A DNA stretch of 39,095 nt from Saprospiraceae bacterium (GTDB taxonomy: Bacteria > Bacteroidota > Bacteroidia > Chitinophagales > Saprospiraceae), in contig JALVEE010000069.1 in NCBI GenBank assembly GCA_027008645.1, positions 1 through 39,095 of the forward strand, given 5' to 3'. Position 1 is the first letter of the stretch, and each line of letters begins with the position of its first letter. Shown here one piece after another: positions 22,867 to 24,305 of this stretch. Below the pieces are notes generated by a model. The model was not told the origin of the DNA. It did not search any database and saw only the letters and a program-made list of their open reading frames with translations. Position numbers and translations under genes: made by a program.

Positions 22867-22959
22867 CGTTAATGTATAATATAACCAAATAGCTAACTAA
22901 TTTTGAATCACATAAACAAAAATCTGTGAAAACACTAAATATATACAACCTGCACAACT

Positions 22960-22982
22960 CCCTTCCCTTGGCAAGGGAAGGG
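22960..22982. terminator. Strong GC-rich hairpin between convergent genes
   Basis: CCCTTCCCTTG and CAAGGGAAGGG form a near-perfect palindrome with a very short loop, between the ends of mnmG (plus) and the ATPase gene (minus). It is followed by TCGGGGATGGGTTCTTTT. It probably terminates mnmG transcription, and may also be one of the G/C-rich palindromic repeats common in this phylum. Confidence 0.6.
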
Positions 22983-22998
22983 TCGGGGATGGGTTCTT

Positions 22999-24156
22999 TT
23001 ATTGCAATCCCTCCCATCCAAGTATTTGATGACCGGACATTTCATAATTATTATTTCCTCCGTAAATCAATGTTTTCTTTCTTATTTTTCCCATACTGAT
23101 TTCGTCAAAATAATTCATTCCTTTAAATAGTTTTGGTAATACAGTTTGGGTTGATTTTATTTCATAAATATCAAAAATATCACCGATTTTAGTTAGCAGG
23201 TCTATTTCATTTCCTTTGGAATCCCGCCAAAACCAATAATTTTTTAAAAGATTTTGATGATAGTTATTTTTAATAATATCTGCTACTATAAAATTTTCAA
23301 AAAGGCTACCTGTTAAAGTTCTACTGACCAAATCACCTTCAGTCCTTAAACCCAATAAGAATGATACTAATCCGGTATCATAAAAATATAACTTAGGAGA
23401 TTTGATAATACGTTTATTGAAATTTTCGAAATAAGGAGCTAATAAAAAAATAACATAACTACTTTCCAAAATAGAAAGCCACGATTTTGCTGTGGGTTGA
23501 GAAATTCCGCAACTTTTAGCAAGACTGCTGATGTTTAGCAATTGTCCTGTTCTTGCAGCACAAAGTCCAATAAAATTATTGAATCGTTTATAATCGTGTA
23601 TTCGTGTCAATTCAGAGACATCTCTATTAATATATGTTTGAATATAATTTGAATAGAAAAATGAATAATCTAAATTCCTGTCATATATCGGAGGATAAAA
23701 GCCTTTTAAAATTAAAGACTTCCAATCATCCGGAAGCAGTCCTGCAGCTTTTAGTTCAGTATTATCAAAAGGCAACAGTTTCAATAAAGCAACTCTTCCT
23801 GCTAAACTTTGAGTTATATTTTTTAATAAATGAAAATTTTGTGATCCCGATAATATAAATTGTCCCGTTTCACCGGTTTCATCCACTTTTGTTTGTATAT
23901 ATGAAAATAAAGCCGGAGATCTTTGAACTTCATCAAAAATGATATGATTATTATATTTTTTTAAAAACCCTTTAGGATCTTCATCTGCAAAATTTCTTTC
24001 ATCAGTATTTTCTAAAGAGACATATTGATAATCGGTAAATATGTTTTTCAACAATGTTGTTTTTCCTGATTGGCGTGGTCCTGTTAATGCTATTACCGGA
24101 TATTTATGAATTAACTGTTTTATTACGTTTTCAAGTTGCCTTTTTATTAAATTCAT
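22999..24156 (-). CDS. AAA+ ATPase with DUF4143 C-terminal domain
   Basis: A 385-residue cytoplasmic ATPase. Walker A GPRQSGKTT is at 26-34, Walker B IIFDEVQR at 72-79, and the sensor region ILSGSQNFHL at about 101-110 (AAA_14). A DUF4143 domain follows (about 165-335), with the characteristic YIQTYINRDVSEL and a WRDSKGNEIDLL block resembling a PD-(D/E)XK nuclease fold near the end. I start at ATG 24156; a TTG two codons upstream is possible. The cellular role of this widespread, patchily distributed family is unknown. A perfect -7 box lies 15 bp upstream, preceded by three 22-bp iterons, suggesting dedicated regulation. Confidence 0.9.
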   Translation of the reverse strand: MNLIKRQLENVIKQLIHKYPVIALTGPRQSGKTTLLKNIFTDYQYVSLENTDERNFADEDPKGFLKKYNNHIIFDEVQRSPALFSYIQTKVDETGETGQFILSGSQNFHLLKNITQSLAGRVALLKLLPFDNTELKAAGLLPDDWKSLILKGFYPPIYDRNLDYSFFYSNYIQTYINRDVSELTRIHDYKRFNNFIGLCAARTGQLLNISSLAKSCGISQPTAKSWLSILESSYVIFLLAPYFENFNKRIIKSPKLYFYDTGLVSFLLGLRTEGDLVSRTLTGSLFENFIVADIIKNNYHQNLLKNYWFWRDSKGNEIDLLTKIGDIFDIYEIKSTQTVLPKLFKGMNYFDEISMGKIRKKTLIYGGNNNYEMSGHQILGWEGLQ

Positions 24157-24170
24157 AATCAATTTTTATA

Positions 24171-24178
24171 CAAATATA
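24171..24178 (-). promoter_or_regulatory. -7 promoter box of the AAA/DUF4143 gene
   Basis: On the minus strand TATATTTG matches TAnnTTTG exactly and ends about 15 bp before the start codon. The iterons occupy the -33 region and upstream. Confidence 0.6.
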
Positions 24179-24183
24179 TAAAT

Positions 24184-24249
24184 ATTTTGAAAATGCACTA
24201 AATATATTTTGAATTTACACCAAATTAATTTTGAAATTACACGATCAAA
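24184..24249. repeat. Three tandem 22-bp iterons upstream of the AAA/DUF4143 gene
   Basis: ATTTTGAA begins at 24184, 24206 and 24228, exactly 22 bp apart. Each is followed by a wwTrCAC block (AATGCAC, TTTACAC, ATTACAC) and an A/T tail. The array lies between the terminator of the DUF937 gene and the -7 box of the ATPase gene, where an operator would sit. Confidence 0.8.
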
Positions 24250-24274
24250 TAAAAATATTATATCTTTCTAACAC

Positions 24275-24305
24275 AAAAAAAAGGAGACTGAATTTATTCA
24301 GCCTC
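24275..24305 (-). terminator. Rho-independent terminator of the DUF937 gene
   Basis: Read on the minus strand, GAGGCTGAA-TAAA-TTCAGTCTC (one G-U pair) is followed by CC and a run of eight T. It lies 28 bp downstream of the DUF937 stop codon and insulates the ATPase gene. Confidence 0.85.

Follow-up and report, generated by a model that had tools for sequence, protein, structure and literature searches.

Promoter repeats private to each gene lineage before DUF4143 ATPase genes: a putative self-control operator in a Saprospiraceae bacterium

What do three regularly spaced repeats do in front of the gene for an AAA_14/DUF4143 ATPase? The question is raised by a contig of Saprospiraceae bacterium (GenBank assembly GCA_027008645.1, contig JALVEE010000069.1), of which positions 1 to 39,095, the whole stretch of DNA analysed, are called the window here. 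The gene (22999-24156, minus strand) encodes a protein of 385 amino acids assigned to the PDC-S01 family, and ATPase-nuclease genes of the DUF4143 type are very common in bacteria and already suspected of an antiviral role. In the reading favoured here, to which a probability of roughly 60% is given, the repeats would be a private operator through which a compact gene, travelling and defence-like in character, regulates itself. An earlier note on this DNA had proposed a dedicated operator with same-face spacing and a selfish or defence-like unit. All three suggestions have gained in strength: the operator by the excess of such elements at promoters and by a private phased motif, the spacing by periods of 22/23 and 32 bp, and the unit by its match to PDC-S01 and by copies that have only operator and gene in common.

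The repeat ATTTTGAAWWTRCAC begins at 24184, 24206 and 24228, with a period of exactly 22 bp, and the resulting operator-like array of three units (24184-24249, minus strand) has the gene-strand core TGYAWWTTCAAAAT. Read on the gene strand, the three copies are GTGTAATTTCAAAAT, GTGTAAATTCAAAAT and GTGCATTTTCAAAAT, and their cores can be written as TTCAAAAT. The array is flanked by the terminator of an upstream DUF937 gene (24284-24305, minus strand) and by the sequence TATATTTG (24171-24178, minus strand; pattern TAnnTTTG), which we take to be a -7 box of the Bacteroidota type; its position, read from the sequence, is 14 bp before the ATG at 24156 and 5 bp from the proximal repeat. Period, location and flanking elements agree with the earlier description of three 22-bp repeats between terminator and box. 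On the side toward DUF937, homology with the genomes G001 and G002 ends at 24276. The region is AT-rich and the repeat unit simple in composition; the tandem score of 24 was matched by 0/2000 dinucleotide shuffles, and in a scan of the window in 20-bp steps only stretches over the array reached this score. Exact matches to the 15-mer are confined, within the draft genome (4.09 Mb), to the three array positions. Allowing one mismatch adds 23 single sites, compared with 2 for a reversed-pattern control, and no second phased pair with up to three mismatches was found elsewhere in that genome; the scatter of the motif that the earlier note had held out as damaging to its own idea was thus not found, the phased pair being confined to this place. 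Chance does not account for the window array, which stands at the promoter and has no second copy in the draft genome.

Different repeats stand upstream of several DUF4143 genes in the same draft genome, where 13 DUF4143 matches were found, 12 of them above the family cut-off. To see the family more widely, 80 stretches were taken from the genus, the family and the order, chosen by the authors mostly for full-length matches rather than drawn at random, and a further 17 loci came from named genomes; the sample of loci is bacterial. A home-made profile identified 117 DUF4143 open reading frames, of which 108 were scored against 216 other frames from the same loci, the start of each control being its first ATG, which may be wrong. 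Two fragments were dropped (L008 and one of L145), as were frames with no usable ATG or with less than 150 bp upstream (L129, L130, L075, L181, L187, L171 and L006); in L006 a 32-bp array is visible by eye. The 108 genes are not independent, since in 14 pairs the identity is 80% or more.

Strong dyads or phased repeats of 20-33 bp were present, within the last 93 bp before the coding sequence, in 77/108 DUF4143 genes and in 15/216 controls (Fisher p about 1e-33), so the earlier proposal to look upstream of other DUF4143 genes came out in its favour. The same measure applied elsewhere to the DUF4143 genes gave 19/108 far upstream, 16/106 downstream and 7/108 at the start of the coding sequence, and for the controls 56/216 downstream and 19/209 far upstream. 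Tandem repeats with z>3 in the 130 bp upstream were found in 44 of the 108 DUF4143 genes against 17 of the 216 controls. Among these 44 the period was 32 bp in 26 and 22, 23 or 44 bp in 10, the remainder having 16 bp (four genes), 33 bp (two), 31 bp (one) and 41 bp (one), whereas the periods of the 17 control genes were scattered (16 bp in five, every other period in two at most). For a TAnnTTTG box no more than 70 bp from the ATG, the counts were 68/108 DUF4143 genes and 41/216 controls. Plasmid-borne relatives, 17 from seven phyla picked from 376 records, passed the z>3 promoter test in 9 cases, distributed over Bacteroidota, Bacillota, Spirochaetota and Pseudomonadota; some of those that did not pass have weaker palindromes at the ATG, by eye. 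Arrays or dyads of this kind are specific to the promoter, to the gene lineage and to the family.

Each DUF4143 lineage has its own repeat unit, and related genes differ in layout as well (32-bp, palindromic). In the clade of the window gene, 25 units from 8 loci follow one another at a spacing of 22 or 23 bp; the sameness of their core is partly built in, because the units were picked with a pattern around it, whereas the spacing is not built in by that pattern. A 92%-identical copy in a genome of the same genus shows four units by eye. When pairs of genes are ordered by protein identity, the excess similarity of their operators is 0.2-0.6 below 30%, 0.3-1.7 at 30-40%, 8-10 at 50-70% and 28-49 above 70%, the ranges spanning the tandem, palindrome and joint sets. 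At 60-80% protein identity (46-54 pairs) the mean excess was 13.1 in the operator, in comparison with 0.8 far upstream and 1.9 and 0.3 downstream. Up to 90% protein identity, neither the stretch 210-300 bp upstream nor the one directly downstream departs far from background, and above 90% the flank medians are near zero, some pairs having common flanks. The unit sequence is thus private to the lineage, alike above about 50% protein identity and near background below 40%, and is inherited together with the protein. Such lineage-private promoter repeats suggest that every one of these proteins recognises a DNA address of its own and thereby controls itself.

The window protein passed both Pfam models, PF13173 with 101.9 bits and PF13635 with 151.6 bits (curated cut-offs 27 and 28.1). 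The product (P0001) also matched seven PDC-S01 models of PADLOC; the best match had an E-value of 1.7e-97 over residues 2-376, with positions 7-406 of the 422 in profile PDLC04790 covered. A sequence search of solved structures found no significant relative (best E 0.1). An AlphaFold2 model, built with 73 window and locus proteins, had a predicted local distance difference test score (pLDDT) of 94.8. For the ATPase part, compared as the first 269 residues, the best solved matches were the archaeal ATPases 2qen (P. abyssi PABY2304) and 2fna (S. solfataricus SSO1545), with Z scores of 16.0 and 15.2. Their AAA+ core and winged helix are alike (root-mean-square deviation, rmsd, 3.1 over 246 and 245 residues) at 17-19% identity, a likeness at the level of the proteins. 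NLR, CED-4, Apaf-1 and EfAvs5 scored lower (Z about 11-13); these STAND ATPases have the same arrangement of nucleotide-binding domain and winged helix, but in the window protein a nuclease-like domain follows, while CED-4, Apaf-1, plant NLRs and EfAvs5 have other N- and C-terminal parts. The model therefore describes the product as a STAND-like ATPase with a winged helix, placed at residues 192-245 (23422-23583, minus strand), its limits being set from the alignment and its fold from the model.

The C-terminal domain is probably a PD-(D/E)XK nuclease. Its last 140 residues, modelled separately (pLDDT 89.1), gave PD-(D/E)XK nucleases as the best matches, with a Z score of 8.2 at most, which is borderline for the fold, and the best Foldseek E-value of 1.3e-3 is close to the level of unclear models. 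The residues E287, E317xD319 and E332xK334 (23155-23298, minus strand), the acidic and lysine positions that such a nuclease should have, were assigned by conservation: in 73 sequences E287, E317 and D319 are invariant, and E332 and K334 are kept in at least 90%. Similar PD-(D/E)XK domains occur in McrC and in the Can2/Card1/Cdn1 nucleases (Z 7-8, rmsd 2.7-4.7), whose partners are McrB or a CARF domain; in the window protein, unlike these, the nuclease-like domain is fused to the STAND-like ATPase.

How such a gene might control itself can be outlined as follows. The ATPase, with its winged helix and nuclease-like domain, would occupy neighbouring units along a single face of the DNA, 22 bp being about two helical turns and 32 bp about three; binding by the ATPase itself, and its cooperative character, are what we infer. 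Bound in this way it would cover the promoter and keep its own synthesis low. The sensing of an invader, or a change of the bound nucleotide, would then release or rearrange the ATPase, so that expression would rise and the nuclease would be freed. The function of the array as an operator, the trigger of release and the defence of the cell against phage by the protein are all presumed steps of this scheme. Because the operator travels with the gene, a copy newly landed in a genome would come with a switch attached and could stay clear of cross-talk with other DUF4143 copies there.

Known systems offer parallels for some of these steps. PDC-S01, a phage-defence candidate of PADLOC consisting of ATPase and PD-(D/E)XK domains, has the same domain make-up as the window protein; the available sections of its description, which treat how often it occurs, of which domains it consists and how it has passed across domains of life, do not mention an operator (PMC12988326). 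Through its match to PDC-S01 the window gene counts in PADLOC as a candidate defence gene. The nearest parallel is RptR, which, according to the sections available, represses its own defence island via three direct repeats overlapping the promoter, as the window array has three direct repeats over the promoter of a presumed defence locus; RptR, however, is a small separate repressor, and its repeats are of 9 bp and hold TAGCTA (PMC12255303). For the DUF4143 genes it is the ATPase that is presumed to bind, the spacing of the units is 22 or 32 bp, and their sequences vary from gene to gene. In kind, RptR is an experimental precedent for autoregulation. That such a DUF4143 gene can be regulated follows from a Thermus AAA_14/DUF4143/HTH gene, TT_P0211, reported in the part of the study available to be one of 12 genes raised more than 4-fold with a plasmid in a strain carrying Argonaute, its RNA rising 6.6-fold with no such change in the absence of Argonaute (PMC4406477). 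One paper, in the part available, lists COG1373 in a table of transferred genes. Within the open-licence literature, a search scope that leaves out every preprint and the bulk of subscription-journal papers, no description of operators of the DUF4143/COG1373/PDC-S01 family was found.

Several results weigh against a private autoregulatory operator. Neither a dyad nor a tandem repeat at z>2 is present in the 93 bp of 25/108 genes, and the layouts fall into three unlike kinds. The Thermus plasmid gene fetched here (L216), which may differ from TT_P0211, failed the promoter test (dyad 1.4, tandem 1.8). The search for the part of the protein that follows the motif gave shifting answers. In the first partial Mantel test, on 39 tandem-repeat genes, the winged helix stood out (1/500 permutations). 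When the test was extended to all 77 genes and to the full 90 bp, the winged helix gave 440/1000 and the nuclease 30/1000; on a downstream control stretch the nuclease gave 0/1000, and the test itself must therefore be regarded as unreliable. With trimmed blocks, the 39 tandem genes gave 15/1000 for the winged helix and 16/1000 for the middle domain, the 39 palindrome genes 5/1000 for the nuclease and 156/1000 for the winged helix, and all 78 genes 3/1000 for the ATPase and 12/1000 for the winged helix. The tests thus disagree on the domain that follows the motif, the first signal of the winged helix having been lost in the broader test and mixed in the third. Moreover, in folds of the NLR/Apaf-1 type the winged helix is autoinhibitory rather than a module that reads DNA.

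The travelling of the unit can be seen in pairs of close relatives. In a genome of the same genus, a copy at another place has operator and gene in common with the window (22994-24253, minus strand; 90% DNA identity). Among the 14 pairs of at least 80% protein identity, 10 lack common flanks and four have them (L079/L081, L077/L078, L012/L013 and L201/L007, the last with a left flank of 975 bp or more). Among the moved pairs, those most alike have only operator and gene in common, about 1.25 kb. The common DNA reaches the stop codon in L077/L080 (92.3% DNA, beginning at -87), L080/L078 (92.5%, at -74) and L200/L007 (90.1%, at -93/-92); in L003/L070 (90.5%) it extends from -97/-94 to +5/+8, and in L201/L200 (90.7%) its limits are -93 and -4. 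In the remaining five moved pairs (72-81% DNA) left edges range between -4 and -72, right edges between 0 and -57. Beyond these, an Agrobacterium/Rhizobium plasmid pair is alike from -79 to +25 (92.6% DNA), and a Moraxella pair has 362 bp upstream in common.

Could the repeats be primarily the end of a mobile unit, recognised by the ATPase-nuclease in order to move operator and gene, with control of the promoter secondary? This is considered unlikely, although much of the evidence on travel fits it: the 10 of 14 close pairs without common flanks, the most alike of which begin at -74 to -97 bp and end about the stop codon, and the plasmid pair with similar edges. In G001 the genes on either side of L070 stand next to each other in its absence; homology with G000-G003 is regained, on one side, no more than about 4 bp from the stop codon of L070, the left junction being inexact. 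At this single empty site examined, however, no target-site duplication was seen. The operator or palindrome is present again behind the gene in L072, L074, L079, L081, L005, L002 and L212, so that a minority of DUF4143 genes are flanked on both sides, but in most genes the end at the stop codon carries no repeat, and the apparent downstream copy in the window belongs to a dispersed repeat. An upstream/downstream flank match of at least 40 was found in 8/107 DUF4143 genes and 3/216 controls, with no overall difference between the flank-match scores of the two groups (Mann-Whitney p 0.30). The less regular edges of the other five moved pairs, and the four pairs with common flanks together with that of Moraxella, also speak against a defined end, and neutral decay of the flanks after ordinary transfer would likewise leave promoter and coding sequence.

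A host regulator in place of the ATPase might bind the operator, as small separate repressors of defence genes of the RptR kind are known and binding by the ATPase is an inference only. We hold this for improbable, slightly more so than a mobile end: each gene lineage has its own unit sequences, the unit accompanies the gene from genome to genome, and the draft genome contains no further copy of the phased motif; with operator sites so unlike between lineages, one host regulator could hardly serve them all. The dyads could also act in the messenger RNA (mRNA), as a hairpin hiding the start site, and 20/52 strong dyads do overlap the ATG or end within 5 bp of it. This is very unlikely, since the window array consists of direct repeats and forms no hairpin, the periods of 22 and 32 bp point to DNA, and some palindromes (L077, L082) appear by eye to contain the -7 box, in which case the transcript would begin within the palindrome. 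As for a functionless chance repeat, which the AT-rich region and the simple unit might invite, it is hardly credible in view of the shuffles, of the like unit and 22/23-bp spacing in 8 loci and of the family-wide excess at promoters. The private autoregulatory operator remains the preferred reading.

Other observations on these loci may be recorded. Immediately after the window gene lies a dispersed repeat of about 127 bp (22872-22998, given without strand), between mnmG and the DUF4143 stop codon, which it adjoins; it ends in a CCCTTCCCTTGGCAAGGGAAGGG palindrome and is not counted as part of the operator. Besides the mnmG match, it occurs in at least 24 places in the same-genus genome G002 and at least three in G004. 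One copy, in reverse orientation, begins 21 bp downstream of the stop codon of a different DUF4143 gene (L182), and no fixed link with the DUF4143 gene is therefore assumed. A weak match at 22918-22944, tried as a downstream copy of the operator, was ruled out as part of this repeat. Clean empty sites were also sought and given up at the window (the DUF937/mnmG junction is not kept across the genus), in Agrobacterium (the neighbours are rearranged by other elements) and at L200 (its neighbours in G002 and G003 have one side only in common).

In L005 the operator stands on both sides of the gene, at 1324-1393 and 2667-2736, the two copies being 81% alike over 70 bp. Downstream of the intact gene in L158, at about 2546-2732, come two additional segments that resemble the 3' portion of the L156 DUF4143 gene at about 80%, as if partial copies had accumulated. 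L012 and L013, distant paralogues of one genome, are 89% identical over 2.4 kb, of which about 1.1 kb follows the gene; this is a recent duplication of a longer block, with no visible operators. L007 and L201 have the left flank and the gene in common, with about 1.07 kb extra after the L007 stop before homology resumes. On the Emticicia plasmid pEMTOL02 (L207, 1232-4691) the DUF4143 gene stands between L-ribulose-5-phosphate 4-epimerase and araA in opposite orientation, 58 and 39 bp from its two neighbours. In G000, G005, G024 and G027, DUF4143 fragments with short open frames are found beside full-length genes, possibly a sign of rapid gain and decay.

A bolder extension, which we regard as speculative and rather improbable, would make the DUF4143/PDC-S01 genes minimal self-addressed mobile cassettes for defence, in which the private address, read by the ATPase-nuclease, would serve both as the promoter switch and as the left end for moving or copying the 1.25-kb unit, so that many could coexist without cross-regulation. 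The family was already known but uncharacterised, and a system of promoter arrays has now been described for it. For its study the private array is a handle, as the DNA ligand of each protein can be guessed from sequence alone. Such arrays would allow binding tests of a protein on its own and on foreign arrays, and reporters could reveal what turns the gene on.
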